A DNA stretch of 64,000 nucleotides from Tetrapyrgos nigripes. Lineage: Eukaryota; Basidiomycota; Agaricomycetes; Agaricales; Campanellaceae. Numbering within the stretch: position 1 is the first letter of the stretch; each line of letters begins with the position of its first letter. The translations under genes and the position numbers were made by a program. Location: the NCBI GenBank assembly GCA_013368315.1, contig JAACJM010000094.1, forward strand, positions 248,001 to 312,000. The letters are read 5' to 3'. The notes below the pieces were generated by a model. The model had not been told where the DNA came from and did not search any database. It saw nothing but the letters and a program-made list of their open reading frames with translations. This document shows, in pieces, positions 40,906-63,864 of the stretch.

Positions 40906-41135
40906 AAAGTCCATGGTATTTCTTTGTGACTTACAATGGTCATACAAGGTTGTTCTAATTTTTCCTGTCTCTTGTAATACTAATGTATGACAAGGAGTCT
41001 TACATATTGATTGGCTTGGTGTAATACTCTTGTAAAACCTCAGTAAAGCAGAGGATTTACAAGTGTTTGCACCCAGTGTCATCTCTGTCATTCATTCCTG
41101 TTATACTCCTTGTGCTTTCTATCTATCTGTCTCCA

Positions 41136-42602
41136 TGGGCTCTTGGAACAAAGGCAAAGGGAAGAAGTGTGCTCGTTCCCCCTCAGACTCAGAAGACGAC
41201 TACTCAAGCAAAGACAACTCCAGCTCCAGTTCAGGTAGAAAGTCTTTGGGCCAGGCACTGAAATGTATTCGTGCACAGCAGTCCAAGTCCAATTCTTCTT
41301 CCTCATAGAAACTATCCACTTCCTACCTCCAGGCAGCTGATAAGGAGGCCAATGCAGGTCTGAGGAGGGTAGCACACCAGAAGCAACTGAAGAGAGAAAA
41401 CAAGTTGTCAGACAAAAGCTCATCCGCAGTGCGTAACCAATAACCCTTCTGCTATATTTCATCTCGTTGACTACATCTATGGATAGGATATTGTTGAAGC
41501 CTACAAAGCACCATGGCTTGCTATCCTTCCAGATGGAATCCAAGAACAAGAGGTGCATTTAATTCTTTGTATTTAATGAAAACCTCTTTCTCATTCAGAC
41601 TCTTCTGATTGTTGGTTAATTCTAGACTCCTCCCTTTCTGATGCTGGAAGGTTGTGATACCAGAGGAAAAATCCAGTTCTCAGACACCACCCTTGAACAT
41701 CTCAGAGCATGCGGCCTTGCTGCTTATAGCTGCGAGGGATATGTGATCAACAAGGATGCAACCCCTGAGGATGTGATGAATTTGATTCTCGAGCATCTTC
41801 CCAGGCCTTACCGATGGTGTCGTCTCAATACCACCATATTCAACCCTTTCAACAGTCTTTTTGTGGAGGATTCTTGCCCCAGATTTGTTCTTCCTGTTCA
41901 CCTCTGTATCCATGAAGGACAACACCTCGCCCTTGCACCTGGAGTAGAAGGCATATTTCCTACTGGTGAATATATCAAACAGATCTGCAAGTCCAAGTCA
42001 AAGGGCTCATGGTTGAACAATGTTTTGATCTTTGGTAAGTATTCACTCTTTTTTGTTTGTGATTATGAATTCTTTATGCTTATATTCGCAAATATAATCC
42101 TTAGCATCGTACAAGACTATTCCTGGCGACTATCTTACTGCCTGGAGCAAAGGAGAGGACCCTTCCCCATTTCTGCCTTCCCAGCCCCTCTTTTCATCAT
42201 ACTCTTCGAACCATGGATCTGAAGACGACCATGGAGAGGATGGATCGGAGGAGGGTCAGGTTTCAGAGGTAGCAGGTGTTAGTGATGAGGGTGAAGAAGA
42301 TGCAGAGTATGGTCATGATATTAAGGAGGTTCTTTGTTGGAGTCGGTTGGAGAACTCAAGGAAAACGAGATGTATGTTGGACAATTCATATTTTCCCATA
42401 TTGCTTCTGATCTGAATTTCTAGCCATGTCTCGTGCAGGTGAAAGTTTTACTGCAGTCACCACCAGCAACGATGAAGATAATGTTCCTTCTCCTCCTCAC
42501 CGCAGCCATCCATCTGCTCTTATCACAGGGCTTACACAGAAGTTCTCTTCATCTCAGTCAAATGCATTCAATGGGACTCAGACCTTTGCATTTGGCAAAT
42601 AG
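41136..42602 (+). pseudogene. element ORF1, copy A (unrecognised basic/acidic protein)
   Basis: ATG at 41136 (MGSWNKGKGKKCARSPSDSE): a basic, Ser-rich N-terminus like a nuclear signal. An in-frame TAG at 41306-41308 corresponds to TCG in copy B. Later exons: YKAPWLAILPDGIQ, then FLMLEGCDTRGKIQFSDTT...GVEGIFPTGEYIKQICKSK (41641-42034), intron GTAAGT to CTTAG, an acidic exon (EDDHGEDGSEEG...) and a last exon MSRAGESFTAVTTSND ending at TAG 42600-42602. Same intron positions as copy B. No known domain. Confidence 0.6.
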
Positions 42603-42835
42603 CACAGTTTCTTGATCTCTTGTTTCAATACACTATTGCACTGTTTCTTGTGTATATATTCTGGTGCAGGCATGTATATATCTACTACATACCTCTTCTA
42701 CAGTCCAGTTTAGATACCAGATCAATGGAATTGATCATTTGTTGACTGGAACACTTGTTTGATATCAGCAAAGATGAATGAGGCAGGCACTTCTTATATT
42801 GCTGCATCGTAAGGTAAGTAATTTTACTTCTTTCT

Positions 42836-43570
42836 TAGAGATGCTGTACACATTTTGGATATCTTTCTACACATCTTGAACAATGAGAATGCTGTTTCCA
42901 GAATGCTGGTATGGTCTGCATAGTAATTTTACATTGTTCTTAGAGATACTGTGAACATTTTGGATACCTTTCTATACAACTTGAACAATGGGAATACTGT
43001 TTCCAGAATGCTGATATTGTCTGCTCAGCAATTTTACATCTTTCTTAGAGATACTGTACACATTTTGGATACCTTTCTACACATGTTGAACAATGAGAAT
43101 ACTGTTTCCAGAATGCTGATATTGCCTGCATAGTGATTTTACATCTGTCTCAGAGATACTGTCCACATTTTGAATATCTTTCTACACATCTTGAACAATG
43201 GGAATGCTGTTTCCAGAATGCTGATATTGCTCTTTCTTAGAGATACTGTACATATTTTGGGTACCTTTCTTTGCATCTTGAACAATGGGAATGCTGTTTC
43301 CAGAATGCTGATATTGTCTGCATAGTAATTTTATATTGTTCTCAGAGGTACTGTGAACATTTTGGATACCTTTCTACACATCTTGAACAATGAGAATGTT
43401 GTTTCCAGAATGCTGATATTGCCTGCTCAGCAATTTTACATCTTTCTTAGAGATACTGTACACATTTTGGATATCTTTCTACACATATTGAACAATGAGA
43501 ATACTGTTTCCAGAATTCTGATATTGCCTGCATAGTGAATTTATAACTTTCTTTTCTCAGAGATACTGTA
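42836..43570. repeat. about 102-bp minisatellite, copy A, about 7 units
   Basis: Units contain AGAGATACTGTACACATTTT, GGATACCTTTCTACACAT, TGAACAATGAGAATACTG, TTTCCAGAATGCTGATATTG and a variable GCATAGTAATTTTACATC. It lies between the 3' ends of the two convergent element genes. Confidence 0.92.
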
Positions 43571-45014
43571 TGATTTTCCTAGATATCTTGGGCTATTTAA
43601 GAGAAACAGATATATATATTGCAGATAACTAGTATTATCACATGGAATGTCTGGTTCTTCGAGCTGCTCTCTCTGTTGTGATGGATGAAGATGTATTGCA
43701 GAAATCTGACCTGCATGAATGTCAGTCAGATTGAATGCAATTTAAAGCCAATTTAGCCACTGATCAACTTTGTCATATGTACGCTTTCTTGAAAGTGTAC
43801 CAGTATAAATAGTGATGATAAAGGGTTGGGGAATGGCAGCGAATGGAGATAGGACACAGATTGAGGGAGGAGTGGAGGGAAATAACTTTTCGACTTTCTC
43901 AATTGCTTGGTTCTGGGTGGATATAATAGTACCATTTTCTTTGGATATTTCTTCAAATCTCTGCTGAAGTACCTCTACTGTGGGGGTCTTACTGACACCA
44001 CCACGTCTGCCTGTGGAAACCTTTTGATTGTGGTCAGATCTCAGTTCATCAGACAGGCCAAGCAAGATGAAGCACAGTTACCTTTGGTGGCCGGCCAGGA
44101 CCACGCTTCAATGTGTTAGAATCATTTGGATTTAACTTGTTGCACTTCAAGTTATGGAAATTGTCTGGGCCAATAGTAGTAGAATAACCAGCTAAGCAGT
44201 GATCCTCTGCTGCTACCTGCCAAATGCCAGCTGTAATGAATATTGACCAGTATTTACTAGTATAATCACTTACCAGCGTGTTGATGGATTTTTTCCCCTG
44301 CCACTCAGCCCCTACCTGGGCACAGACAACTGTGAAGAAATATCCACGCTGCAAGACAGGTAGGATAACTGACTTGCGAGATGGATCAGTGATGAGAATG
44401 TGCTGCGAATTATGCAGAGTATAGGGTTGGCCTATGTCATAGAAAGTCAGATTATATTGGTATATGTAGATAAATATCTGTGAAACAGAAACATACCAAT
44501 AATGTGTACTGGATCTAGTAGTCCCATTGATGCAAAGAAGTTGAACATCTTGACAGGAACAGAGACAAACGCTTTTCTGAACACCAGCATACACTTACTG
44601 GTGTAGTTTTGATCTGCCCTCTCATTGAAGGCAAAAGGATTATTAGAGTTCATGCGGACTGCAATAAGATCTAAAAAATCCTTTGAGAAGTGATTGTGAA
44701 GATACCGAAAAAGGGAGTCAACAAAGGATATATAGATCTCATCTGATTGGCAGATCAATTGTGCGGGAGTACTGGGAAAGAGACCAAGTGAATGAAGGCT
44801 GTCAGAAATGAGATGACGGCCAAAAGGACTGAATGCCATGGAATTATCCATTGCAGAGGCAATGGATGGAGACCTAGTCCCATTAACTATCCCATCACGC
44901 CATAGGTCTCTGACCAGAGAAGCTTCCTGAAACCAATCAGGCCCACATTTGAACGGAGACCAAATGACATGCCACATCTATATCACAGAAATGAGAGAAT
45001 TAAATGGTGTGTCA

Positions 45015-48000
45015 TGACGTCTATATTTGGTACTATTTATTTCTTCTTATCCCCGTATCCTCAGACCTTCACACCATTTGACTCTTATTCCACATGCTAC
45101 ACACCGGACCTTTCATTTCTCCGATACAGCTTCGATACAGCTTCTTGACAGCTTCCTTTACAGCTTCCTTTACAGCTTTCTTTACAGCTTTACTTTTACA
45201 TATATAAACCCTGCCCTGACACCTGGTTCCCCATCTTGACCTCTTCATCGTTGGGACCAGGTGTGTATTTCCCTTTTCATTACTTCTTTCACCTTTTCTG
45301 ATGGGCACTGTAGTTCCAGTACTTACTGCTGTCTGTTAGGTATTTAATACATTCTTCGTTGTTGGGACCAGTTCCAGTACTTACTGCTGTCTGTTAGTCG
45401 AGTTGAGCCTGTAGCTCCTCGTTATCGCTATCTAAGCGCTCGCCTCTTTGTGACATTAGGTCAAGATCCCTTACTGCACGGTGGCCTCTGTATAGGTCAC
45501 CCTTGCAGGTACTACTGCCACCACGTCTGGATAATACGCTGCACCATCCTCAGTCTCTGATTCATCTGTCTCTGCATCTCTCCCACCACCTCCGACACCA
45601 TTGCTCTGTGTAGATTGGCTACACGGTCTTGACTTAACAGATCAGAAGCATGTCAGCTTTGATATCGACAGCTACCTTGAAAACGGAGAAGAACTCTACA
45701 ACAACTGCCAGCAACAGCCTTGTCCCCACGCTCATCAATCCATCCCCCAGGTCCACTACTACTTCTGGGAAGGAGAAAACAGTATAATCCTACCCAGCAA
45801 TACAGCCCTACTCCGCTCCCACTTCCTACGCCTTGCCTTCAGCCACCTGCCATTCTCCAGTCCTGAATCTAGTACTTCCACTGTTCCATCACCAGACATC
45901 ACTCACACCCCACTACCGCTATCCGCTCCACCTTCTGCCATACCAACAGCCTGTCCCAGCCCTACACTCGTACCCAATCCATCCCCTCTTCCCGTGTCGC
46001 CAGCCCCACTCAGTCCCATTGCTTCCCCAATCACTGACATCGACATGTCCTCCGCCGCCCTTGAAAACCTCCTCCAGGCTCTGGTTAACAACCAGAACCA
46101 GCTGCAGCAGGCAATCACCAATTTGGTCAATAGACCTACCCACGAATCCTCAGACAAAACTGCCAAACTGGCCCCATTCAAAGGCGAACCAGCCAAACTC
46201 GACTTGTTCCTATCTCTCTTCATTCTCTGGGCTGGAGAACAAAAGTGGCTCAAACTTGACAGTGGGAAACTCGATCCATGGAAGTGCATTGCAGAAGACT
46301 CCTTATGATGGAAGGACCTGCCGCAGAATGGGCTGCAGAGTATGCTCGTCATATCAGCAGAGTCTGAGCAGATGAAGCCAGAGCAGTCTTCCCCTGGGAA
46401 GGGAACTGGGACAACTTCACCCACGCACTAAAAGTTCGGTTCGGGGTAGCAAACAAGCAGCAGCTGGCCAAGAACAAGCTCGAGGCGTTGAAACAGGGAG
46501 ATAAAACAGTCACAGAGTTCTCTCAGATTTTCGAGATGTGGGCAGAGAAGACTGGGTTCTCGGATCAGGACCTCCAGTACAAGTTCTGAAAGTGCCTTCA
46601 TAAGGACCTGTTGTTCCCATCGGCAAATGTGGAGCTAGGACAGAAGGAGGCCCCTAAAAACCTAGATGAGCTGATCAACCGAGCACTTCATGCGGAACAG
46701 ACCCTAGCAAAGTTCATAGGAAAACCAGTCACTGGCCCTACCCCATCCCTCTCCAGATTCTCCTCTGCACGAGACCCTAACGCCATGGACGTTGACACCT
46801 CCCGTACTGAGCATCCCCAGGGTAACAGACGCACCTTCGTGGACTACCAGAAGGCGATGCAGGGGTGCTGCTACAGCTGTGGTTCCAAGGATCACATGAA
46901 ACAAGATGGAAACCATGGATGTGACAAGTGTGACTACTGTGAGAGGATGGGTCATCGCTCTTCCGTCTGTCAGGACCAATACATGGGTCGACCCAGAGGA
47001 GGGGGTCAAAGTAGACAACGTGTGGCTGCCACTATTAGTGACACCTTTAGTCTTTTCCCTGATGATCCACCCTCTCCTACCCCTGCCGCTGCCCCCACTG
47101 CTACTGTCGCCACTTCCTCATCCACTGAATCGCCATCTATGCTCTCTGCCTTGCAACAATCTATCGCCGACCAAACTGCTTTACTCCGTAACATCACTAA
47201 CCAACAGGGTTTTTGAAACAGGTGTCTGTTCCCGCCACAGCGCAAACACCCCTGAATAACCATATGCTCTCTTGTTCCTCGTACGATTCTATTCCCTCTT
47301 GTACCATATCCAGTATCCCCGAAATAGAATCTTGTGCTTCTCACTTCCGTATACGTGTGAAACTCCAAGGAAGATGAAATGAGGCAGTGGTAGTGGCAAT
47401 GGTTGACAGCGGAGCTACAGGACTGTTCCTGGGACAGTCATTTGTAAAGCGGCACCAAATCCAAAACTATCCCCTCCATAAACCCCTAGATGTCTACAAC
47501 ATTGACAGGACCCTTAACCGAGCAGGGCGTATAGATCGGTTCTGTCAGCTAGCTATGACAGCAGATGGACAGGAGGCATGGCTAGATTTTCTGGTTACGG
47601 ACTTAGGCAGAGAAGACGTCATCCTGGCTCTTCCCTGGCTGCGTAAGATGAACCTACAGATTGACTGGACAGGCAGCCGGCTGCAAATCCCTGTAGCACC
47701 GCCCCCATCAGTGGAAGAGATCCCCGATCAGGATCAGTTCGTTGCTACCAATTTCAGACCAACCTCAAGGGGAAATGTCATCCTGGAAGGCACAGAATCT
47801 GAACCAACCCAGTCAATTCCTCAGGGAACACATGCACCCATAGACCAACCCCCGGATCTGGCAGCAGAAGAGGAGGAGGAACCCCAAGTATATCGCATTC
47901 ACGCTAACCAGGCTACAAGGCGCTCCTGGAAGAAAGCAGGGATCCTTGCTGACACTGGAGAAGAAGTCTGGCAGGGTTCACTTACTCACAGCAGCTGGCT

Positions 48001-49957
48001 GAAGAGGCAAACTGGATGAAACTGAAACAGTCGTTTGAGGAGATAGTCCCTCCTCAATATCGGGATTATTCTCAGGTCTTCTCCGAAGCGGAGTCGGAAC
48101 ACCTTCCTGCACACAAACCCTGGGATCATGCTATTGAACTAGTACCTGGAGCACCCGCTACCCTATGAACCAAGATCTACCCGATGTCCATCAATGAACA
48201 GCAGGAACTCGATCAATTCCTTGACGAAAATGTCCGCAAGGGATATATCCGGCCCTCCAAATCCCCTCTGTCCTCTCCAGTCTTCTTTGTGAAGAAGAAA
48301 GACAGGAAACTTCGGTTTGTTCAGGATTACCGACACCTAAACGAGTACACTATTAAGAACCGCTACCCTCTTCCCCTCGTTGCCAACATAGTCAGCTGCC
48401 TTCAAGGTGCCAAATACTTCACCAAGTTCGACGTACGTTGAGGTTACAACAATGTCCGGATCAAACAGGGGGATGAGTGGAAGGCAGTGTTTGCAACCAA
48501 CCGAGGACTTTTCGAACCTACTGTCATGTTCTTCGGATTGACAAACTCGCCAGCTACTTTCCAGGGCCTCATGAACTCCATCTTCTCAGACTTGATCACA
48601 GCAGGCAAGGTAGCAGTTTATCTGGATGACATCCTGATCTTCAGTGGGACTCTGGAAGAACACCGAGGAGTGGTTCGGGAAGTGCTAGCCAGGTTGAAAA
48701 GGAATGATCTGTATCTGAGGCCAGAGAAATGCAAGTTTGAACGAGAGGAGATAGAATATCTGGGGCTGATTATCTGGGAAGGGCAAGTTTGCATGGACCC
48801 GGTGAAGGTGGCAGCAGTACAGCACTGGCCAGTCCCCCGCAATGTCCGCGATGTTTGGGCGTTCTTGGGCTTTGCAAATTTCTACCGACGATTCATAGAG
48901 AACTTTGCTAAAACTGCTCGGCCTCTGAACAACCTCACTCGTAAAGACATCTCATTTAATTGGGGAACTCACCAACAGGAAGCCTTTGACTCCCTTCAAA
49001 CAGCCTTCACGTCTGTGCCCATTCTTACACTCTGGTCACCAGATCGTCCTACCCGAGTCAAAGTAGACACTTCAGGCTTTGCAACAGGAGGAGCTCTAAT
49101 GCAGATGTTGGAAGACGGTCTTTGGCACCCAGTAGCATTCCGTTCCACATCCATGCAGTCAGCCGAACGCAATTATGAAATCTACGACCGAGAGATGCTG
49201 GCTATTATCGAGGCACTGAAAGATTGGTGGAGTTATCTGGAAGGACTACCACAGCCCTTTGAAATTATCACAGATCACTCTAATCTAGAGTTCTGGCGAA
49301 CAGCACAGGATCTTAGTCGACGACAAGCAAGATGGGCCCTGTGGCTATCACACTTTGACTTTCGACTAATCCATCACCCAGGCAAAGTGAATACCCAAGC
49401 AGATGCCCTCTCTTGCCTCTCCTCCCACCAAGTAATGGACCGGGAAGACAATCTGGAAACCACAGTACTCAAACCAGAACACTTTGTAAGGCTCGCCGCC
49501 ACTACGCTGGCCAACCCTCTAGAGGAACGAATTCGTCAGGCACTGGGAAGAGAAGTGGAGGTGTTAAAAGGACTAGAGCAGTTGAAGAAGGAAGGATTAC
49601 AACGACTGGCCAATGGTTTACCCGAATGGGAGGAGGATAATGGATTGGTATACCACAAGGGGCATGTCTATGTCCCCCCAAATGAAGACCTGCAGAGGGC
49701 AATAGTAGAACAATGCCATGACGAACCATCAGCAGGACATCCAGGACTACATGGAACACTCGATTTGGTAACCTCGCACTTCTGGTGGCCCACTATTCGC
49801 TCTTTTGTAGAGAAGTACGTGGAGGGATGTGATAAATGCGCCAGGAAAAAGCTCCAACGTCATCCGCGAGCAGTAATCCAGCCTTTGGACGTACCCTTAG
49901 GACTCTGGGAAGAAGTTGGAGTCGACCTCATTACACAGCTACCATCCTCAGGCAAGA
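45015..49957 (+). mobile_element. Ty3/gypsy LTR retrotransposon, 3' truncated and decayed
   Basis: Comparison with copy B (which continues ...GTGTATCATTCGG at 59425) shows the insertion starts at TG 45015, as LTRs do. The 5' LTR and leader would be within 45015-45600; this contains a direct repeat (AGTTCCAGTACTTACTGCTG at 45312 and 45369). Gag, protease, RT, RNase H and the integrase H2C2 region follow. The sequence stops inside integrase at about 49955 and goes directly into host-element sequence, so the integrase core, 3' LTR and one target duplication are lost. Confidence 0.9.
45601..47219 (+). pseudogene. gypsy gag, broken
   Basis: Encodes a proline/serine-rich N-terminus, then MSSAALENLLQALVNNQNQ and a retrotransposon gag-type capsid (KLAPFKGEPAKLDLFLS..., FSQIFEMWAEKTGFSDQDL), then a zinc-knuckle region CCYSCGSKDHM...CDKCDYCERMGHRSSVC. 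The capsid frame is broken near 46305 and by in-frame TGA codons at 46365-46367 and 46587-46589. Structural protein of the virus-like particle in intact elements. Confidence 0.8.
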
Positions 49958-49992
49958 AAAGTTGCAAACTGCCCATACCCAATTGGCAGTGA
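47375..49992 (+). pseudogene. gypsy pol (protease, RT, RNase H, partial integrase), broken
   Basis: Aspartic protease DSGATG (about 47405), then a frame change near 47970, RT with [31 protein letters not shown] and the catalytic YLDDILIF (about 48616-48640). RNase H has VDTSGFATGGALMQ and TDHSNLEF; the integrase H2C2 zinc region is GHPGLHGT...CDKCARKK. In-frame TGA codons at 47375-47377, 48166-48168 and 48439-48441 (in place of Trp in VRWGYNN-type motif). The protein ends in foreign residues after LITQLPSSGKK because of the truncation; the DDE core is absent. Confidence 0.88.
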
Positions 49993-50862
49993 CAATAGCC
50001 ATAAAGATAGATATGTTGCGATGGTCACGTCCGTTTGGAAGTGGCTGTGAGTTTGGCTCAACAAACCAACTTGGGATTGCAAATACTCGCAATTTCTCTG
50101 CCTTGATCTTGTCGCTGTTGTTTCTGGAGAAACTAGAAGCAACGATCTCTTCATAAACCTCTCGGGACATCTGTATAGGATGTGCCTCCAAGCCCCAAGA
50201 GATCATGACACAGTGCTATCGAATGAAGAAAGATATGCCACATAATCATATCAAATTCAGTCAAGACAATACTCCGAAAAAAAGGATAAAAAGACGCACG
50301 TAACCTGCTGCTACAGCAGTGTACTTTCCACGAGTACAAATAAGAACAGGACCTGGTACTTTGGGGCATAGAAGTTGCTCGCAGCACCAATAGCGAGCCT
50401 CCTTGATGCACATCAAGTCATAGACATTGCAAACCAACGGTTCAAGTGGCTCTAGTGATGCATCAAATCGGCTCTGGTCCATGGTAATTGTGCAATAATC
50501 TTGCTGAGCAGTACCAGAAGCAAACATAGAGGGGTGGATACATAGAAAACCTAACTAAGTGTTGAGAATGAAGTAGAAACAATATTACTGATTTACTGAC
50601 CTTCCAATGGTTTTTTTGAGCGGCTGGAATGCTCCTTAACACTTTTCTTGAAGGTTTCACAAAATACAAGAGCCTCCGGACCCTCAGGCATAGTGGCGAG
50701 AAAGGTAGTGAAGCGTGCGTGGAAGTGGTTGAAGAATAAACAATGCGCGACGCGTTTGAATCAGGTGAATCAGGTGATAAGTCACAAGACCTGTGTCATG
50801 AGAACTGCTCAATTAGGCTTATCTCACCAGATTAGATTGATTACATACAGTACACTTGTTTC

Positions 50863-51013
50863 AATACGGGTGTCAACTTTGAATGAATACGGGTGGTGTC
50901 AACTTTGAATGAATACGGGTGTCAATAATATGAGTGAATACGGTGCCAAATTTGAATGAATACGGGTGCACTTTTGAGTCAATACGGGTCAAATAAAAGT
51001 GCACTCGGACCAG
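50863..51013. repeat. right-end iterons of copy A
   Basis: Six or seven copies of (A)ATACGGGTGTCAACTTTGA-type units spaced 20-25 bp, ending AATAAAAGTGCACTCGGAC. Same array as 60431-60579. With the inverted array of copy B starting at 51014 it makes a large imperfect palindrome centred near 51013. Confidence 0.9.
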
Positions 51014-51172
51014 TATGCTGTCCCAGGTGCACTTTTATTCGTGCACCCGTATTGACACAAGTTGACACCCGTATTTATTCATAAGTTGACACCCGTATTC
51101 ACTCAAAAGATCAACACCCGTATTCATTGAAAATTGGCACCCGTATTTATTCAAAAGTTGACACCCGGATTT
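51014..51172. repeat. left terminal repeat and iterons of copy B
   Basis: TATGCTG...GTGCACTTTTATTCG followed by six units of the type ACCCGTATTCATTCAAAAG(TTGAC), period about 24 bp. Orientation is opposite to the array at the right end. Likely transposase-binding sites, by analogy with other DDE elements. Confidence 0.88.
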
Positions 51173-51625
51173 TAATTTCATTTAATTTGCTGACATGATC
51201 TTCTGACGTGATCTCGGCTAATGATCAGTCACAAGAGTTACTTGTCACGCGCATCTCATTCCGCCATCCCCAGACGTTTTGGCTTCTGGAAAGGGTGTTA
51301 CTGTAAGTAAACTCGTTTGCATTTAAGTCTAAACTCAAGCCTAATATGTAGCAATTGTGTAGAAAATAATTCCTTGAATAGATGTCATAATAAACTTGAT
51401 ACCTACTGCTCGCAGCTCCCTGGTAGCGACCGCTAGTGTCCGCTACTAATTGGCTACTAACACCAGAGCTTATGATTAACACACCATATGGAGCGTCACG
51501 TATGTTATTAGACAAAGAAACATATGAACGCAAAAATGAGCGGAGTATTAATTAGTAGTGGTATGTATAAAGGAGTGTGAAGAACTGGTGTGGCTGGGAA
51601 GCGTTGGATGGAAGGAAATGGAAAT

Positions 51626-52777
51626 TTAGGTAAGAGTCGTAGTGGTAGCTAATGTTTGATTAGGTGAAAACTCCTCTGGACACATATAAAGCGAACGAAT
51701 AAAATCGACGATGGATACTGTAGCAGACGTGACAATCTGATCCTCAACGTTCAATGCTCCCCCATCCCGCCAAGCCTGAAGATAGGCAGACTTGCAGGAA
51801 GGTCTAAGCTCAGTAGACAGTGTTTGCTCTGCTAAATGGGTGATTTCATCGAGGGGAATGGGGTCATCGGGATCGATCAATCTCCTGCCTATCACACTCC
51901 ACCATAACTCGGTCCAATAAGGCACGCAAAGACGTTCATGTCGACCAGCAGAACAGTCAGGACTGGGAGCTACTGTGGGAATAGATTGAGCAATTCTAGC
52001 ACGCTCACGGAGTATCCTGGCATGCGCAGCACCGATAATCCCAATTATTCTGCCTCCTAATCTGGACATATCATCACCACGAATCTGCTCTGGGCCGCCA
52101 CGGATCAAAGCATGTAAGGCTGGAATGAGCCAATCTTCATCGAGTATTGGCAAGGTAATGCTGAGAGCGACTTTGTCAAGGGGAGAGATAGGTGGGTCGG
52201 CTTCTTTGAGACGGTCGATAGCCCATCGTGAGCAATCCGGCATTATGAACCACCGGAAGCATGCAGAAGTTTGATGAGCATGTCGACAGTAAAGTGGGGA
52301 GGATTTGGAGGACTGAGCAGAGTTCAGTGTGATACATAACAATAGTAAAAAGAAAAGATAAGTAGAGGAAACACTCACAAGTGCCAAACCCACTCTAGAA
52401 TGAGAGCAAATTGTACGGCAGTGACACTGTCCAGAAAGATAGGCTCAAGAGTGGAAAAATCTGATGGTATGTCTACTAATCCCTGTGCTGAAGATGCCTT
52501 CTCCAGAAGTTTCTCGTAGTTCTTTGGATTGTGAAAGGAAGGCAGCTTCGAGAGTTCCACCAAGTCACTGACTAGTACTGAGTGCAAGCATAGTGGACTG
52601 ACTGTGAATCGGAACAAGACATCTTCTGCCTGTAGGAGCGTGGAAGTTGAGAGGTTAAGCGGAAAATCAAGCAACAATTATGAGTACTACTAAACATACC
52701 CTGAAGACAACCATCCTTTCCTGATCAGTCCAGTACCACTTCTCATGGTGCTTCCACTGTGTCGCACACCCAGCCAT
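51626..52777 (-). CDS. BTB/POZ-like protein carried by the element
   Basis: ATG at 52777 (MAGCATQWKHHEKWYWTDQE), intron about 52699-52631, then AEDVLFRFTVSPLCLHSV...VSDLVELSKLPS, the usual opening of Agaricomycete BTB-domain proteins, and SVTAVQFALILEWVW. After a second intron (GTGAGT at about 52378 to CAG at about 52322) come FTVDMLIKLLHA and CSRWAIDRLKEADPPISPL, then LPILDEDWLIPALHALI, the alpha-helical segment typical after this BTB type. The stop is at 51626. The frame shifts by one base near 52265, by a lesion or small intron. BTB proteins mediate protein contacts, often as Cul3 adaptors; the role here is unknown. It is divergent to the integrase gene and may share its promoter (52778-52995). 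Confidence 0.62.
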
Positions 52778-52995
52778 CGAAGAGAGAGGGAAGAAAGAGA
52801 AGAAAAGAGAGAATGGGGTTAATCAGGCCAGTTACTTACGAGTGTCCTTTAAGGCAATCTGATTTCTAATCTATAGAGCGTGTTGTATATAACCCCATGA
52901 CTGTACAGGCCATTCCTTCACCTCATTTCACCTCATTTCACTTCACTTCGATATGCCTGCAGATACAATTCCCAGTTTGCCGGCTTCCACTACAC

Positions 52996-55085
52996 ATGGA
53001 CTTCTATCATGGCCTCCTAATGTCAAACATGCGATATACTGCTCTATCTGACATCTACTCTGCTGCGATCCAAGCACTCCAATCCGATTCGGAAACACAT
53101 CGAATGACGTTCCATATGGAAGCCTTAGTACAGGATGCTTTCCCACTGCTGCTTGCATTTGATGATGGCATCGACAATTATCCCACACTTTCTCAATGGC
53201 TGGAGCAGACAGCAACTATGTATGCAGACTTGTTTGATGATTTTTGCGCGTTTGCAGAGCGTACAGGAGGAAGGTAACTGCCCTTTCAATCTAAAATCAT
53301 TAACTGATCTGACTGATATGAGTTAGAGACTCAAATGTATCTCAGTTACATGCAGTTAATATCGAAAGATCAGGAAAACGAGGCCGCCCACGGAAGGTAC
53401 CTATCTATGAAGTCCTCAAGGATGCATTTGCATCTCATCGAGGCATCAGCCAATCAGAGATGGCTGATGTTCTTGGCATTCACCGCAACACCTTGTCGAG
53501 ATATCTGAAGCAATACAATATCAACTCCCACAAGTTCAGTAACATCAGTGATTCCGACCTTGACACCATAGTCCGGGACTTCCGTGTTCATCATCCGCAA
53601 GCTGGAGTTCGGTATCTCAGAAGCCACCTTCGAAATAATCACAGTTTGCGGATCCAAAGGCTACGTGTCCAAGAATCCATTGACCGAGTTGACCCTCTTG
53701 GACAAGTACTTCGGCATTATACTGCTACTCGTCGACGCCGGTACAAGGTCTCACGACCAAATGCTTTGTGGCACATGGATGGACATCACAAGTTGATCAA
53801 ATGGGGATTGTTATTCATGGCATCATTGATGGATTTTGTCGAACGGTGCGATAACTCTCAAAGGATCGTGATTCCCCACATACTCTTACACTAATAGGTT
53901 TCTTAGATTGTCGGACTTCGCGCTAGCACAAGTAACAGTGCCTCAACTGTTCTGGATGTATTTATCAAGGCAGTTGAGAGATATGATTTACCTTCCAGAG
54001 TGCGTGGGGACAGGGGTGGAGAGAACAAGAAAGTCTCTGTCTACATGATCCTTAGGCATGGCCTTAATCGTGCCTCGTACATGTGGGGAAAGTAAGTTGT
54101 GACCTTATTCAAATTTCCGGAAATTTCAAGTCCTTCAGATCTACTAGAAACAGCTGAATAGAGCGACTCTGGGTTGAAGTGGGGGTGCAATTCGCAAGAC
54201 CATGGCGTGCGTTCTTTTTGCGCTTGGAGGAGAAGCACAGACTCGACATCCAGAAGCCGGCTCATCTTTGGCTCCTTCATTATCTATTCTTGGACGAAAT
54301 TAACCAAGACTGCGAACAGTTCTCTCAGCTATGGAATGCACATCCTATTTCAGGAGAAGGTCATAACAAAAGCCCTAATGTGCGTAGAGCACATGTCCTC
54401 TTATCTTTTCCATATTTTGAACATTTGTATAGGACATGCGATTTCTTGGCATGTATCAAGATGGTGTATATGATGACTGTGAGGGAGTTGATCCAACTGT
54501 GATTGAGAGGTTCTATGGTGCAGATGATGAGTCAGACTTGGACACAGACTCAGACTCGGACACAGACTCAGACTCGGACGCAGACTCAGACAACTCGGAC
54601 TCAGACTCAGACTCAGACTCAGATGAGGAGGATTTGGAGTATAACTATGAGAGTAGTGACGAGGATGAGGCAGATGGAGATGATGAGTATTCATTCAGAC
54701 ACTTAGAAGGTTCGAAATTCTGTGCTCTCTTTGAATGACACACTCAAATTTTCCATCAGAACATGTAGCAGAAAGCATCCAATCGCAATTCAAGCATGCT
54801 GCGATCTCGGTGCCAAAGTATCCAGATCCTTTTTCTAACAAACAGCGTCATGACTTCACTGCTCTGTTAGAGGCTGTTGTGGGTGAGAACATCTTACCAT
54901 ATGGATATAACATACGAGATGATGAATGGGATGAACATGGTTATCCATCGGTGGAGATTCTGCGATCAGGACGTAGGGGTTCGAGGGAGCAACGAATTGC
55001 ATTACCTGTAGATGACTGGCTTCCTCGTGCGCGACTGTGGGTTCAGTCCCTGGTGGCCATGAATGATGTTTTGGCAGCTGACTAG
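52996..55085 (+). pseudogene. rva_4-type DDE integrase/transposase, two lesions
   Basis: Probable start at ATG 52996 (MDFYHGLLMSNMRYTALSD). Intron 53274-53326, then an AT-hook-like GKRGRPRK, a helix-turn-helix (SQSEMADVLGIHRNTLSRYL), the linker RVDPLGQVLRHY and the DDE core: D in NALWHMDGHHKLIKWG, D in SRVRGDRGGEN, E in IERLWVEVG, followed by LHYLFLDEINQDCEQFSQLWNAHPISGEG-type sequence and MRFLGMYQDGVYDDC. An acidic Asp/Ser run (about 54530-54640) and a C-terminal DWLPRARLWVQSL region end at TAG 55083-55085. After KWG (about 53805) one base is missing relative to the frame that reads IVIHGIIDGF, and CGA has become TGA just before IERLW (about 54151-54153). Introns near 53847-53906, 54091-54139 and 54389-54433. 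Probably inactive. Confidence 0.82.
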
Positions 55086-55495
55086 CTTACTACCCCTGTT
55101 TGTAACTGTAGAGATGAACCGATGAGGCATTGAAGCAGAAGTTTTCAAAGAGATCACCTCAAAGGAGTGAATATTCCTGAGCTCGCAGTATCAGTACCTT
55201 CTTGGAATGTTCCAAATGAAACCTTCCTTTGGGGCATTTCATTTGGTGGTGGTTCCTTTAGTGAGCTTTCATTTGGTGGCATTGCTTTGCCACTAGCACA
55301 TCAGATAGAATGTTCCATATGACACTTCCTTACTTCATTCCAAAATTACACACAAGCAATGGTAGTTTGCAACTGCATAATAACGTCGTGAGGCAATGTC
55401 TCCAGAGCTAGCCCACAACCCAACTTTTGTCGTTCATTGTTTCCTTAGTCAACATCTGTCGTTCCTTGGTTCCTTGGTCTCTTACAGTGAATTGC
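55086..55495. other. spacer inside copy B
   Basis: Between integrase and ORF1. Contains a TTTCATTTGGTGG repeat (55237, 55268). Absent from copy A. Confidence 0.55.
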
Positions 55496-55552
55496 TGTCA
55501 TCTCTGTCGTTCATTCCTGTTATACTCCTTGTGCTTTCCATCTATCTGTCTC

Positions 55553-57178
55553 CATGGGCTCTCGTAACAAAGGCAAAGGGAAGAAGCGCGCTCGTTCTCC
55601 CTCAGACTCAGAAGACGACTCCCAGCTCCAGCTCAGGCAAAAAGTCCTTGGGCCGGGCACTGAAACGTATCCGTGCAAAACAGTCCAAGCCCAATTCTTC
55701 TTCCTCATCGAAACTATCCACTTCTTACCTCCAGGCAGCTGATAAGGAGGCCAACGCAGGTATGAGGAGGGTAGCCCAGAAGAAACCGAAGAGAGAAGAG
55801 GAGGTATCTGAGGGTAGTTCATCTGCAGTGCGTAACCAATGACCCTTCCGCTATATTTCATTTTGTTGACTATGTCTATGGATAGGACATTGCTGAAGCC
55901 TACAAAGCACCATGGCTCGCTGTCCTTCCTGAAGGAATCCAAGAACAAGAGGTGCGTTTAATCTTCTGTATTTAATGAAAAAACCTCTTTCTCGTTCAGA
56001 CTCTTCTGATTGTTGGATAATTCTAGACTCCCCCATTTTTTATGCTGGAAGGTTGCGATATCAGAGGAAAAATCCAGTTCATGGACACCACCCTTGAACA
56101 TCTCAGAGCATGTGGCCTTGCTGCTTATAGATGCGAGGGATATGTGATCAACAAGGATGCAACCCCTGATGATGTGATGAATTTGCTTCTCGAGCATCTT
56201 CCCAGGCCTTTCCGATGGTGCTGTCTCAATAACACTGTATTCAACCCTTTCAACAGTAATATCCTGGAGGATACTGGCCCCAGATTTGTTCTCCCCGTCC
56301 ACCTCTGCACTCGTGAAGGAAGACGCCTCACCCTTGCCCCTGGAGTGGAAGGCATATTTCCTACTGGTGAATATATCAGACGGATTTGCAAGTCGAAGTC
56401 AAAGGGCTCATGGCATGAACAATGTCTTGGTCTTTGGTAAAGTATTTACTCTTTTTTGTGTGTGATTATAAAGTTTTTATGCTTATATTCACAAATATAA
56501 TCCTTAGCATCGTACAAGACTATTTCCACAAACTTATCTTTACTGCCTGGAGCAAAGGTGAAGACCCTTCCCCTTTTCCACCTTCCCAGCCCCTCTTTTC
56601 CTCATACTCTTCGAACTCTTCAAACCAAGGATCTGAAGATGAGGGTGGAGAGGATAGATCGCAGGAGGGACAGGTTTCAGAGGTAGCAGGTGTTAGTGAT
56701 GAAGAAGATGCAGAGTATGATCGTGATCTTAAAGAGGTTCTTCGTCGGAGTCGGTTGGAGAACTCAAGGAAAACGAGATGTATGTTGGATAATTCATATT
56801 TTCATATATTGCTTCTGATCAGAATTTACAGCCATGTCTCGTGCAGGTGAAAGTTCTACTGCAGTCATCACCAGCAACGACGAAGATAATGTTCCTTCTC
56901 CTCCTCACCGCAGCCATCCATCTGCTCTTATCACAGGGCTTACACAGAAGTTCTCTTCATCTCAGTCAAATGCATTCAATGGTGGTATGAAGACCTTCGT
57001 GTTTGGCAAAATAGCACAGTTTCTTGATCTTATGTCTCAATACACTATTGCACGGCCTCTTGTGTATATACTCTGGCGGCAGGCATGTACATATCTACTA
57101 CTACGTACCTTTTCTACAGTCCAGTTTAGATACCAGATCAATGGAATTGATCATTTGTTGACTGGAACACTGGTTTGA
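55553..57178 (+). pseudogene. element ORF1, copy B (unrecognised basic/acidic protein)
   Basis: ATG at 55553 (MGSRNKGKGKKRARSPSDSE). An 8-12 bp loss after the SEDD run (about 55618) relative to copy A puts the rest of exon 1 out of frame, although downstream codons (KSLGRALKRIRAKQSK) are preserved. Later exons match copy A: YKAPWLAVLPEGIQ, FYMLEGC-type exon IRGKIQFMDTTLEHLRACG...GVEGIFPTGEYIRRICKSK (56042-56415), an acidic exon GVSDEEDAEYDRDLKEVLR, and MSRAGESSTAVITSND to the stop at 57176-57178. Basic N-terminus and acidic middle suggest a nuclear chromatin-type protein, but no domain is recognised. Kept in both copies, so probably part of the element's gene set. Confidence 0.6.
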
Positions 57179-57224
57179 TATCAGCAAAAGATGGCAAAGA
57201 TGAATGACTTCTTAAGTAATTTTA

Positions 57225-57990
57225 CTTCTTTCTTAGAGATGCTGTACGCATTTTGGATATCTTTGTACACAGCTTGAACAATGAGAATGCTGTTTCCAGA
57301 ATGCTGATATTGCTTGCATAGAAATTTTACATTCTTCACATCATTCTCAGAGATACTGTACATATTTTGGATCCCTTTCTTCACCTCTTAAACAATAGGA
57401 ATGCTGTTTTCAGAATGCTGGACTGCATAGTAATTTTACATTATTCTTAGAGATACTGTGAACATTTTGGGAACCTTTCTACACTACTTGAACAATGGGA
57501 ATGCTGTCTCCAGAATGCTGATATTGTCTACTCAGCAATTTTACATCTTTCCTAGAGATCCTGTACACATTTTGAATACCTTTCTACACATGTTTAACAA
57601 TGAGAATACTGTTTCCAGAATGCTGTTATTGCCTGCATAGTGATTTTATATCTTTCTCAGAGATACTGTCCACATTTTGAATATCTTTCTACACATCTTG
57701 AACAATGGGAATGCTGTTTCCAGAATGCTGATATTGTCTGCATAGTAATTTTATATTGTTCTCAGAGATACTGTTAACATTTGTATACCTTTCTACACAT
57801 CTTGAACAATGAGAATTATGTTTCCAGAATGCTGATATTGCCTGCTCAGCAATTTTACATCTTTCTTAGAGATACTGTACACATTTTGGATATATTCCTA
57901 CACATGTTAAACAATGAGAATACTGTTTCCAGAATGCTGATATTGCCTGCATGGTAAATTTATCTTTCTTTTCTCAGAGATACTGAATGA
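57225..57990. repeat. about 102-bp minisatellite, copy B
   Basis: Same unit as 42836-43570 (GATACTGTACACATTTTGG, CTACACATGTTTAACAATG, CAGAATGCTG(A/T)TATTGCC), with different unit number and order, showing turnover since the two copies separated. Confidence 0.92.
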
Positions 57991-58148
57991 TTTTCATAGA
58001 TATCTTGGGCTATTTCATACATATATTACAGATAACCAGTATTATCACAGGGAATGTCTGGTTCTTCGAGATGCTCTCTCTGTTGTGATGGGTGAAGACG
58101 TGTCATGGTAATCTGACCTGCATGAATGTCAGTCAGGTTGAAAGCAAT

Positions 58149-60254
58149 TTAAAGCCAATTTACCCACTGATCAACTTTGTCATATGTATGCTTTCTTGAA
58201 AGTGTACCAGTATAAATAGTGATGATAAAGGGTTGGGGAATGGCAGTGAATGGAGATAGGACACAGATTGAGGGAGGAGTGGAGGGAAATAACTTTTCGA
58301 CTTTCTCGATCGCTTGGTTCTGGGTGGATATAATAGTACCATTTTCTTTGGAGATTTCTTCAAATCTCCGTTGAAGTACCTCTACTGTGGGGGTCTTACT
58401 GACACCACCACGTCTACCTGTCGCAACCTTTTGATTGTAGTCAGATCTAATCGTACAGGCCAGGCAAGATGAAGCACAGTTACCTTTGGTGGCCGACCAG
58501 GACCACGTTTCAATGTGTTAGAATCATTTGGATTTAACTTGTTGCACTTCAAGTTATGGAAATTGTCTGGGCCAATAGTAGTAGAATAACCAGCTAAGCG
58601 GTGATCCTCTGCTGCTACCTGCCAAATGCCAGCTGTAATCAGTTTTGACTAGGATTCACTAGTATAATCACTTACCAGCGTGTTGACGGATTTTTTCCCC
58701 TGCCACTCAGCCTCTACCTGGGCACGGACTACTGTGAAGAAATCTCCACGCTGCCAGACAGGTAGGATGACCGACTTGCGAGCCGGATCAGTGATGAGAA
58801 TGTGCTGCGAATTATGAAGAGTATAGGGTTGGCCTACGGCATAGAAAGTCAGATTATATTGGTATATGTACATAAATATGTGTGAAACAGAAACATACCA
58901 ATAATGTGTAATGGATCTAGTAGTCCCATCGATGCAAAGAAGTTGAACATCTTGACAGGAACAGAGACAAACGCTTTTCTGAACACCAGCATACACTTAC
59001 TGGTGTAGTTTCGATCTGCCCTCTCATTGAAGGCAAAAGGATTATTAGAGTTCATGCGGACGGCAATAAGATCTAAAAAATCCTTTGAGAAGTGATTGTG
59101 AAGATACCGAAAAAGGGAGTCAACAAAGGATCTATAGATCTCATCTGACTGGCAGATCAGTCGTGCGGGAGTACCGGGAAAGAGACAAAGTGAATGAAGG
59201 CTGTCAGAAATGAGATGACGGCCAAAAGGACTGAAGGTCATAGAATCATCCATTGCAGAGGCAATGGATGGAGACCTAGCCCCATTAACTATCCCATCAC
59301 GCCATAAGTTTAGCTGTTCTCTGACCAGAGAAGGTTCCTGAAACCAATCAGGCCCACATTTGAATGGAGACCAAATGACAGGCCACATCTATATCACAGA
59401 AATGCGAGAATTAAATGGTGTATCATTCGGAGTAAAAACATTGTTACGCACCTCTGAACCAGGTTCAAAGTCACTGGTTTGCCAAGGACGGCTCAACGAG
59501 AACGATCGCGCAGGTAACGTGTAGCTTGACAAGGCGAGAGAAGTCGCAAACTGCCCATACCCAAATTGGCGCAGTGACAATAGCCATAAAGATAGATATG
59601 TTACGATGGTCACGTCCGTTGGAAGTGCGCTGTGAGTTTGGCTCAACAAACCGACTTGGGACTGCAAACACTCGCAATTTCTCTGCCTTGATCTTGTCAC
59701 TGTTGTTTCCGGCGAAACTAGAAGCAATGATCTCTTCATAAACCTCTCGGGACATCTGTATAGGATGTGCCTCCAAGCCCCAAGAGATCGTGACACAGTG
59801 CTATCGAACGAAGAAAGATATGCCGCATAAGACAATACTCCAAAAGAAATAATAAAGAGACGCACGTAACCTGCTTACAGCAGTGTACTTCCACAAGTAC
59901 AAATAAGAACAGGACCTGGTACTTTGGGGCATAGAAGTTGCTCGCAGCACCGATAGCGAGCCTCCTTGATGCGCATCGAGTCATAGACATTGCAAACCAG
60001 CGGTTCAAGTGGCTCTAGTGATGCGTCGAATCGGCTCTGGTCAACGGTAATCGTGCAATAATCTCGCTGAGCAGTACCAAGAGCAAACATAGAGGGGTGG
60101 ATGCGTAGAAAACCTAACTAAGCGTTGAGAATGAAGTAAGAACAATATTACTGATTTGCCGACCTTCCAATGGCTTTTTTGAGCGTCTGGCATGCTCCTT
60201 AACACTTTTCTTGAACGTTTCACCGAATACAAGGGCCTCCGGACCCTCAGGCAT
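58149..60254 (-). CDS. element AT-hook gene, copy B (unrecognised multi-exon protein)
   Basis: ATG at 60254 (MPEGPEALVFGETFKKSVKE), intron (about 60162-60119), LGFLRIHPSMFALGTAQRD and SLEPLEPLVCNVYDSMRIK...CCEQLLCPKVPGPVLIC, intron, ISWGLEAHPIQMSREVYEE...KLRVFAVPSRFVEPNS, then IWSPFKCGPDWFQEPSLVR, FGRHLISDSLHSLC, RMNSNNPFAFNERAD, FRKAFVSVPVKMFNFF, QHILITDPARKSVILPV, AGIWQVAAEDHRLAGY, an AT-hook KRGPGRPPK and ISKENGTIISTQNQAIEKV, ending at TAA 58149-58151. The AT-hook implies contact with AT-rich DNA, such as the element's iterons; that is inference. No catalytic motif recognised. Conserved intron-exon layout with copy A indicates a real gene. Confidence 0.65.
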
Positions 60255-60430
60255 AGTGGCGAGAAAGGTAGTGAAGCGTGCGTGGAAGTGGTTGAAGAAT
60301 AAACAATGCGCGACGCGTTTGAATCAGGTGAATCAGGTGATAAGTCACAAGACCTGCGCCGTGAGAACTGCTCAATTAGGGCTATCTAACCAGATTCGAT
60401 TGATTACATATGGACTGTACACTTGTTTCA

Positions 60431-60579
60431 ATACGGGTGTCAACTTTGAATCAATACGGGTGTCGATCATATGAGTGAATACGGGTGCCAATCAATGAAT
60501 ACGGGTGCCAAGTCTGAATGAATACGGGTGCACTTTTTTGTCAATACGGGTCGAATAAAAGTGCACTCGGACCAGCATA
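60431..60579. repeat. right terminal repeat and iterons of copy B
   Basis: Six units of ATACGGGTG(T/C)CAA-type sequence spaced 20-25 bp, then CGAATAAAAGTGCACTCGG and CAGCATA. Inverted relative to 51014-51172. Confidence 0.88.
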
Positions 60580-61957
60580 GGGTCAGAGCCGCTTTTGCAA
60601 ACTTGAAAAAACGACTAGTTTTTTCGAAAAGTGAGATTTCAGACGGATCGAAAAATGATCAAAAAACGACATCAAAAAACGGCTGAAAACACCAAAAAAC
60701 GCCCGCGTGAAACACCCTAATAGTACAAAAAATTTCGTATATAAGTTCAATTAAATAAAGACTCATTAAAAGATTCCCGAAGTACACTACTGTCCAGCTT
60801 GAAATCCGTGACCTGGTTCTACACTCCTCTTGTCCTCAGTGATTGGAATTTTGGGTGCGTTGCTACAACATTTTTGTGTTTTCTTCGGCGTTTTCTTGCC
60901 CTACTCCAGGACTTGCTTGCTCATTTCTCCAAACTTCTCAACAGCGCATACCCAAATTACATCGACGACTGGCTTCCGCTTCCGGACTGTGAGTATACAT
61001 ATCTGCCGTCCCTCCCTCCTTCCTTCCTTCCCTGCTCCTTGCTCCTCTACCTCTCTATTTCTCCCTCTTTTCCCCTTTCTTTCTATCTTTCCCTCGAATA
61101 TTTATTCCCGAGTATGTCATCCCTGATACTGAGTATTACACAAAAAAGGTTGACAGGGCAACACCGCTACCTCCCACTATCCCCATCTCGAAGCACTCAA
61201 AGCATCCGTTGACCCGGAGCATATGTTTCGAGACTCAACAACTAGCACTATTTGAATCTTTACCTTTCGTTATATGCATTTTCACTGGATATTTATGTTG
61301 ACTCTGGCTTACACCTTGTTCTTTTGTTCTCCTTACGTATAGATCTGCGTTAATGGTAGGTGGCATGTATTGCTATTGAATCAGTACGGATCAACGGAGT
61401 GTGGCATGTCTAGCACAGAGGAATTGGCTAGATAAACGAGGACTGTAGTTACTAGCACAGAGATGTACTGATGCAAGAGTGTGTGTATTCATATCAAACG
61501 AATGTCATCATTTATTGAAATAATTGGGCTGCCTGTAACATTAAACAATGTGTATGTCAAATTTTGATCTTTCCTACTCAAAGCCTGCAATTGCACTACA
61601 TTGATCGCTAGTGAAACTGCTCCTGGTTCAGCAGAGGAGGCAAAGTGCAGTGATGTGATGTGCACAGGCTATTGCTATGTACATGTAGCAGAACTTGAAT
61701 TTCTTAGAAAGAATACAAAAATCGCGAGAGCTCTTCCAGCTAAGACTTACCTATGCCATGGCAGAACAGAATTTGAACAAGAGATATTGGGAAAAAGGAC
61801 GGCCCAGTACAGAAAGAACAGTTTGAATCAATTTTTTTTTTGCTATGTAGCTATGAATATATCTTTACAGGAAAAGAGAAATAATAGTAGAAATTTAGAA
61901 CTTCAATTCATCCAAGATATCACAAATACAGGTATATCAGTGTGATCCAAGTAATGT
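60580..61957. other. gene-poor region with CT-rich tract
   Basis: 60600-60720 is rich in AAAAACGAC/AAAAAACG repeats. 61010-61095 is a CTTCC/CTCC low-complexity stretch. A frame at 61601-61945 (plus) starts at TTG and has no family features. No gene supported. Confidence 0.5.
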
Positions 61958-63864
61958 TCAAATCAACTCCACCCTCTCCTCTTTCCATGGAAGATCTGCA
62001 ATCATTTCTGAAGTTCTACCATGTCTCCCTTCAGTAGGTTGTGATTTTATAAAATAGGATATAGCTTCCCTCTTCACTGGAAGTTCAAATGAAGCAACCC
62101 TCCTGAATGCTCCTTGATAATGCTGTACACTTTCTAAGATGAGATAGAATATATGAGAAGCCTCTGCAACACTCAGACTGGTGGAGTCTGTATCTATACT
62201 AGTAGGAGAGGACTGGGAACTATCATAATCATCAGGCCCAGGCCTAATCCAGTTCTGAGACAAAGAAACTTTAATTACTGCGAATTGTTGTCCTGCATAT
62301 GGTTCATGTTTTTGAGCAAACTCTGTCCCCAAATATCTCTCACTATCTGAAGCATCAAGACACAAAATTTCTCTCAAAATCTTCTCAAATGCCAAGATGC
62401 CTGGATTCTCTTGTGCTATATTTCCATCCTCTTGAGAATGAATCTTCATCCACATGTCTGAAAGATATACCAAAGGTGCATTAAACTTGAGTACAAGATG
62501 TCCTGTAGGATTGAAACGCTCTTGGTCATCTGCAATTGGTGATTGAATCTGTGTTAAGAAACTTTGCTTAATCACATTTCGTGAATACACGGCATTTACA
62601 ATGCTTGCCCAACTCCATGACGGTGCATTTGAGCTCTCTTTTTTTGAAATCATACTATGACACAAGAAATTTCTATTGTGATTACTTTCCCATTGCAAAC
62701 CAGACACCCAGTTACTAGACCATAATCCAGCATAGTATATTGAACAAACACCTTGTAACTTCAAATTTTCCTCCATTATCCTTGCTACCCCAGCTGTTGC
62801 TGCCAACTTGTCTGAATGAAAAGTGAACAGTCTATGCAGAAAGTCATTGACTATTTCATGAAATTCATCCAGTAGTAATTTATGATAAATTTGATCAGAA
62901 ATGTCTTTGAGATATACTTGCTTCATTTGGTAAGTACAACCCAGCGAGTTGAGATTTCTGTGAGATTCATGTGTCTGTAGGTGCCTTTGAGTGTAAGTGC
63001 TATTTCTTCTGCTTGCTCTTTGAGTAAATCAACATATTCACCATCCTCTTTTACTACACATGTTGGGCAATACCAGCTCATTTGGTGCTTTGTGAAGAAT
63101 ATTCCACTTGTAGCAGATAGATATTCTTGTAGAGTCCAACCACGAGTACTCCAAGGACCTGGGTTACCACCCAACAGTCTAGTTTCATGATTGGCACTGT
63201 CACTATCTTCAGATGAAGCATAGGTGACAAAGATTTCGCTACTTTCTATCCTTGATTCAGGATCAGATAATGACAAAGCAACTTCAGGTTTGACCATTCT
63301 GTTACTAAGAAATCCTTGACTTGCAGAGGCTGAATCTGCTGCAAACAATGTGACAACAGCATTTCTATACACATCATTCATGCAGGCTGCCTCTGTTCTC
63401 CAATCCTCTCTATCATCCTGAATGATGCATAGAGCATCAATCCAGAGAAAAGGAATACCCAGCCCCCTAGTCACAAAAATGGCATCTTTAAGTGTTTGAG
63501 GAAGCTCTACCCATGGGATGTTTCCCTGGAATGCATCTAATTTGTTTTTTATAAGCTTCAAATGTGTATGGCTATCTTGGCCCCAGCAATAGCTTAGAGC
63601 AGTATATTTCCCAGTCAATCCTTTGGTGATTTTGAGATGGGGTCCATTCACATCAATAACTCTGGTGGGTAATTGAGTGTTTGATTTGATTATTTTTTGA
63701 CAGACTTCATGTTTTTCTGAGCAGTCTTTCAGCCAAGTGTGAGCTAGGTTTAAAGTGGAAGATGTCCTTGATTCCTCTTCAACACCCCGGCTCCAGATGA
63801 AATTGGTGAGAAGGGAGTTATTTTTTGGAAGTGTATCTGTCAAAGTAGTAAGTAAGTAATGCAT
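61958..63864 (-). CDS. HET-domain protein (heterokaryon incompatibility type)
   Basis: Core HET motifs are clear: KYTALSYCWG (about 63605), IPFLWIDALCIIQDDREDW (about 63460-63405), and GPWSTRGWTLQEYLSA (about 63160-63115). The C-terminal part (62926-61958) holds RLFTFHSDKLAATAGVA, YYAGLWSSNWVSGLQW and APSWSWASI, as usual after HET domains. The two open frames meet around 62923-62926 (ATGA overlap); TTACCAAATG there and a TAG acceptor near 62860 suggest an intron, otherwise a frameshift. The first exon probably begins at DTLPKNNSLL after an intron acceptor TTTGACAG (about 63842), with the true start upstream. HET proteins trigger cell death on recognition of non-self in fungi; the partner here is unknown. 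Confidence 0.85.

Follow-up and report, generated by a model that had tools for sequence, protein, structure and literature searches.

Background and Main Finding

As published, IS3EU/GingerRoot transposons have TA..TA ends, usually produce target duplications of 6 bp and lack HHCC (PMC10045372), and 100-300 residues separate the N-terminus of their DDE integrase-type transposase from its first catalytic D (PMC10045372, PMC12730594). PMC12730594 also describes multi-gene IS3EU elements of rusts, which have TAYGG..CCRTA tips and carry genes for TET/JBP and an alpha-kinase, and presents the TET/JBP dioxygenases captured by fungal transposons as thought to undo methylation-based silencing. Polinton likewise makes 6-bp duplications. 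Here we analysed a stretch of 64,000 nucleotides of the Tetrapyrgos nigripes genome (assembly GCA_013368315.1, contig JAACJM010000094.1; hereafter the window), in which positions 51014-60579 very probably hold one copy of a DNA transposon that carries four genes, was active recently and is of the IS3EU/GingerRoot type; its fourth gene, g4, may encode an Fpg/Nei-type helper. A sequence-only reading of the window knew of no transposon described with such genes and ends, and in the open-access texts searched none with this set of genes was found; those on IS3EU/GingerRoot and on transposons yielded no transposon with a glycosylase-type gene.

Element Ends and Genomic Copies

The element is bounded by terminal inverted repeats, the left tip lying at 51014..51041 on the plus strand (TATGCTGTCCCAGGTGCAC...) and the right tip at 60552..60579 on the minus strand (...GTGCACTCGGACCAGCATA), with an identity of 86% of 28 nt. 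The left subterminal iteron array (51045..51171, plus strand) has five exact ACCCGTATT units and a degenerate one with a period of about 24 bp, while the right array (60430..60551, minus strand) has six exact minus-strand units. Both the matching inverted ends and the roughly six iterons behind each tip, which had been described from the letters alone, were thus borne out. The window contains 16 occurrences of ACCCGTATT, where 0.16 would be expected, every one of them at an element end: this copy has five units at its left end and six at its right end, and five more stand at the right end (50863-50989) of an older neighbouring copy, hereafter copy A. A pattern of two adjacent iterons no more than 10 bases apart gave no match, the real gaps being 11-16 bp. 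Between the ends the genes are arranged in the order g1 (minus strand), integrase (plus), g3 (plus), and g4 (minus).

The first 187 bp of the left end were matched against the species' own 98-Mb assembly and were located in at least 49 places, nine of them with 100% identity over the 187 bp. In the search for further paired iteron ends, all but one of the 13 best left ends had an inverted right-end partner on the same contig; of these 12 pairs, nine are spaced 9.51-9.57 kb, one 3.9 kb, and two 17.6 and 18.7 kb, and the thirteenth left end, on C134 (C numbers denote contigs, the window being on C91), points toward the contig start. Eleven of the 12 pairs were examined, C151 being left out, and all 11 carry TATGCTG...CAGCATA tips, TATG being the point beyond which the flanks diverge except in copies that share a flank. 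The copies on C10, C44, and C232 measure 9,544 bp each, C44 and C232 differing from C10 by 8 and 10 mismatches. Between the window copy and C10 there are 6 mismatches and 20 gaps; the window copy has a broken integrase frame, and intact copies exist.

Four of the 11 pairs (C10, C232, C83, and C434) have the same 6 bp on the outer side of both tips, and C141 has five of the six bases in common. The C83 copy (C83:30320-34233) is a 3,914-bp internal-deletion derivative that has kept both ends, g1 sequence, and g4, without the integrase, and it is flanked by a perfect 6-bp target duplication; its allelic empty site at C190 is identical to the joined flanks at 440 of 440 bases and has a single target copy. 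For the C10 insertion the flank alignments gave five paralogous empty sites with 91-96% identity. The proposal that this is a mobile element with inverted, iteron-built ends is therefore upheld: the paired ends are multicopy, insertions are flanked by 6-bp duplications of the target, and empty sites exist. The same proposal would have been weakened by arrays occurring independently of the genes: paired ends without an integrase do exist, on C83 and probably on C46, although the C83 copy derives from this very family by deletion. It counts against the overall reading that six of the 11 paired copies have no matching target duplications; four of these six carry the right flank of C434 and two share one left flank, probably through assembly joins (see below).

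More diverged ends of this kind, paired or single, were also seen on C343, C46, C265, C365, C120, C38, and C249 and at C91:205187-213340; some of the pairs are 3-5 kb apart, and they are probable older or nonautonomous relatives.

Integrase and Comparison with Described Elements

The integrase/transposase gene lies at 52953..55085 on the plus strand and was modelled from the C10 copy as six exons encoding 619 amino acids, with GT-AG introns of 50-61 bp. The protein has an AT-hook-like GKRGRPRK motif at 123, a helix-turn-helix (HTH) at residues 135-171 and a rva_4 core (PF24764, residues 246-427, E 2e-61), which confirms the rva_4-type assignment first made by eye. The likely catalytic triad is formed by D258 (HMDG), D315 (RGDRGG), and the E of NSRIERLW. 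A relative, P0001, has STR ahead of NSRIERLW; with the acceptor placed 9 bp upstream these three residues would appear here too, so exon 4 probably starts 9 bp earlier and our model is probably three residues short. The 261 matches to the integrase are spread across Agaricomycetes and reach animals, with a best identity of 53% among the 120 listed; no sequence labelled IS3EU was found among these best 120 of the 261.

With IS3EU/GingerRoot the element shares the TA..TA termini, present in 11 of 11 paired copies examined, the 6-bp duplications, perfect in four of the 11 pairs and retained at five of six bases in one, and a DDE integrase in which the HTH precedes the likely first catalytic D at 258 and in which the Pfam scan gave no match to a zinc (HHCC) domain. 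It need not, then, be a new superfamily, since its ends, duplications, and integrase layout appear to fit IS3EU/GingerRoot. Unlike the described elements, it has g1, g3, the Fpg/Nei-like g4, and iteron arrays at both ends. It resembles the TET+ IS3EU elements of rusts and Tuber (PMC12730594) in being a multi-gene fungal IS3EU element; those carry a gene thought to act against DNA methylation, TET/JBP (with an alpha-kinase), whereas here the gene encodes an Fpg/Nei-like protein whose corresponding role is putative. The element falls outside that rust subgroup: the tips here read TATGC..GCATA and not TAYGG..CCRTA, a comparison made with the published description, and no TET/JBP or kinase match was obtained in the five gene pieces scanned (g3 being covered in part).

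The Fpg/Nei-Like Protein

The g4 gene (58149..60254, minus strand) has seven exons, and its 578-amino-acid C10 model is Fpg/Nei (MutM/NEIL)-like with an AT-hook-like GPGRPPK tail. Two genes had been called unrecognised in the sequence-only reading; this stands for g3, for which no homolog was found with a partial model, and not for g4, whose family has a predicted Fpg/Nei fold. In Fpg/Nei glycosylases an N-terminal Pro2-Glu3 and a catalytic Lys have roles in the reaction, and the helix-two-turn-helix (H2TH) motif has a conserved Asn (GxGN). An MPE start is present in all six g4 homologs whose models reach that point and in the C10 protein (in P0125 it is placed behind a 32-residue extension), and RGK is found in eight of eight homologs.

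Several results count against this assignment and were weighed together. The structure was predicted for a homolog 47% identical and not for the window protein, with a mean predicted local distance difference test (pLDDT) of 66 and a predicted template modelling score (pTM) of 0.61, and the Foldseek superpositions were loose (root-mean-square deviation 4.8-9.2). P0121 alone, compared with the PDB sequences, found no Fpg/Nei chain and four unrelated matches, and the Pfam family Fapy_DNA_glyco was matched in one of 10 g4 homologs (E 0.042), which is no better than a stray PulA_N1 match (E 0.016). The C10 model has CGK where the homologs have RGK, and the H2TH Asn is not kept, the motif being of the GFGRHL type in the segment that aligns to the NEIL H2TH region. 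The g4 protein differs from MutM and NEIL1-3, to which it shows about 10-16% identity in structural alignments, by the absence of this Asn, by its long AT-hook-like C-terminal tail, and by being transposon-encoded. PADLOC gave nothing for two g4 homologs. In one source P0121, the Marasmius crinis-equi homolog of g4, is labelled 'RNA-dependent RNA polymerase', a name for which the predicted fold gives no support.

In the mechanism that we propose, the AT-hook/HTH region of the integrase would bind the ACCCGTATT iterons, and the enzyme would insert the element by its TATG...CATA ends, with a 6-bp stagger in the target DNA. The g1 protein would be an old partner of the integrase, and g4, either an Fpg/Nei-type glycosylase or a DNA-binding protein derived from one, might help the element by acting on modified cytosines in its DNA, the modification probably deriving from methylation. 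The second of these forms is a real, although not the favoured, possibility: g4 would keep the fold, no longer cut bases, and act as a factor that binds the DNA of the iteron ends, for example as an end-pairing or targeting subunit. The AT-hook-like tails of the homologs, the changed H2TH motif, the CGK of the young C10 copy, and the iterons crowded at both element ends would agree with such a factor, but the retention of MPE (six of the six that reach it) and RGK (all eight) across homologs 26-46% identical to P0121 speaks against it.

Selection and CpG Decay

The ratio of nonsynonymous to synonymous substitution (dN/dS) was 0.25-0.36 for g4 (C10 against copy A, C141, and C28) and 0.33-0.40 for g3 (against copy A and C141), whereas for the integrase (0.46) and g1 (0.17, or 0.19 without CpG codons) it was obtained for C10 against C141 only. 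The stop codons of the older copies were excluded (three in the integrase and one in g4 of C141, four in g4 of C28, and one in g3 of copy A). Considering that CpG decay could inflate dS, the calculation was repeated with the CpG codons dropped and the result held, with ratios of 0.19-0.43 and Fisher p from 2e-3 to 8e-13. Purifying selection acts on all four genes; the dependence of the integrase and g1 values on a single older copy is a point to be set against this. Under such selection the genes have the look of functional components, not of incidental cargo, and the earlier idea of a large cargo-carrying element was overstated for 9.5 kb of DNA.

Another explanation is that g3 and g4 were captured from the host as passengers with no role in the life cycle of the element, which we consider unlikely. 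It would agree with g3 having no homolog found by its partial model and with the distribution of g4, whose matches in the genome are copies of this family or fragments (C21, C205, C154, and C272). None was obtained at eight more diverged integrase loci of the same genome, so elements of this kind do not generally require g4, which also counts against the proposed reading; in other species, g4 and integrase on one contig were not found among the best 120 of the 261 integrase matches. The low dN/dS of both genes, with or without CpG codons, nevertheless indicates that they were maintained while the family multiplied.

At CpG sites the C-to-T fraction was 0.225 in copy A, 0.260 in C141, and 0.401 in C28, against 0.035-0.048, 0.030-0.043, and 0.073-0.112, respectively, in other contexts, the 105-bp array described below being excluded from the count. 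Such decay of the old copies is the mark expected if the copies were CpG-methylated. Against a mark specific to the element, the observed/expected CpG values are alike in the element (0.61) and in the whole window (0.58), and the decay may extend over the whole genome. In the assembly, one Tet_JBP match exceeds the cut-off and one falls below it, and there are two DNA_methylase matches.

It is conceivable, although we would not expect it, that the element encodes its own base-excision demethylase, an AT-hook-tethered, Fpg/Nei-derived glycosylase removing oxidised or methylated cytosine and so keeping the copies active. NEIL1 is reported to excise 5-carboxylcytosine (5caC; PMC5566547), which makes an action of g4 on modified cytosine plausible. 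This demethylase would be the counterpart to the capture of TET/JBP by other fungal transposons and, if true, a second and chemically different anti-methylation route, at the excision step; the CpG decay in the old copies, as expected of a methylated target, makes the idea directly testable.

Superfamily Assignment and Shared Flanks

A new superfamily near Ginger/Polinton, in place of IS3EU/GingerRoot, seems quite improbable. In its favour, IS3EU was compared by description and not with a named sequence, so that the assignment is based on ends, duplications, and domain layout; the fifth tip base deviates from the rust signature, and 6-bp duplications are also a Polinton trait. The TA..TA ends, the duplications, and the N-terminal HTH without a zinc-domain match nonetheless agree with the published IS3EU/GingerRoot traits, and no polymerase domain was matched in the five gene pieces scanned.

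The right flank of the C434 copy is common to C91 (the window), C398, C502, and C179, and another flank, on the left, is common to C44 and C81. When C434, C398, C502, and C91 were compared with C179, 7.8 kb of flank showed zero mismatches and 32-40 small gaps; between C81 and C44, 5.4 kb of flank showed zero mismatches and small gaps only. C434, C398, C502, and C91 end within the shared right flank and C81 within the shared left flank. These flanks are probably assembly joins through a long identical repeat, in which case the window sequence from 60580 is probably not the true neighbourhood of the window copy. This copy starts 4 bp short of the right tip of copy A (50990-51020), as if inserted in a transposon end; the true right flank predicted by an insertion into that tip was searched for and no match was found. 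Although several contigs, the window's included, thus seem to carry a misjoined flank, we give practically no credence to the matched ends being chance repeats or an assembly artefact, in view of the matching duplications at C10, C83, C232, and C434, the empty sites for C10 and C83, and the 16 iterons where 0.16 are expected.

The genes annotated in 60580-64000, on the flank also present in C434, C398, C502, and C179, may be duplicated artefacts.

Other Genes and the Neighbouring Copy

The g1 gene (51626..52777, minus strand), head-to-head with the integrase, has three exons in the C10 copy and 338 amino acids to the stop; most searches used a shortened model of 331 amino acids. Its relatives are 21-37% identical, with E from 5e-42 to 6e-4. 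A g1-like match and an integrase match stand head-to-head at eight other loci (C23, C274, C18, C144, C178, C170, and two on C324), from which the pair would be an old unit; g1-like matches on C8, C74, and C46 with no scored integrase nearby speak against a strict pairing, and short C-terminal pieces of g1 are present on C265, C249, C391, C4, C80, and C17. On the g1-side end, a TATG...GCAC tip followed by ACCCG-type iterons was found at four of the eight loci (C23, C18, C144, and C274), those of C144 being degenerate and not listed as a family by the repeat finder; the other four (C178, C170, and the two on C324) yielded no tip with such iterons behind it in the same search. The tip pattern alone matches by chance elsewhere in the loci, and the weight lies in the iterons behind it. 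As judged from these sequences, g1 and the integrase are an old unit to which the iteron ends belong at part of the loci. The suggestion that g1 is BTB-like, made by eye, was not supported: Pfam gave no match for g1 or for the C23 and C274 proteins, the comparison of g1 with PDB sequences did not confirm BTB, and the PF00651 scan of the genome marked 9 places, all other than g1. The hhalign comparison with a host BTB protein was collinear and weak (P 0.027, probability 1.8%). Long tandem arrays of 22-bp units adjoin the diverged g1-integrase pairs of C170 (L058) and C324 (L059).

The g3 gene (55554..58111, plus strand) encodes a protein of no recognised family; its exons were modelled to about 56965 and the 3' part is uncertain. 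The main exon had no Pfam match, the partial model found no homologs at E<=0.1, and an AlphaFold model (pLDDT 32) was discarded as meaningless. Inside the g3 region, at 57215..57985 (plus strand), there is a tandem array of about seven units of 105 bp. The array is also seen at 42817-43570, with a different length in the two copies of the window, and its units carry a TCTCAGAGATACTG-like stretch that resembles the splice acceptor in front of the putative exon that follows.

Copy A (41077..51013, plus strand) is an older, left-truncated relative of the same family, 89-91% identical, which is split by a Gypsy-like retrotransposon gag-pol at about 45016-49949. The C28 copy is also interrupted by a separate Gypsy-like insertion.

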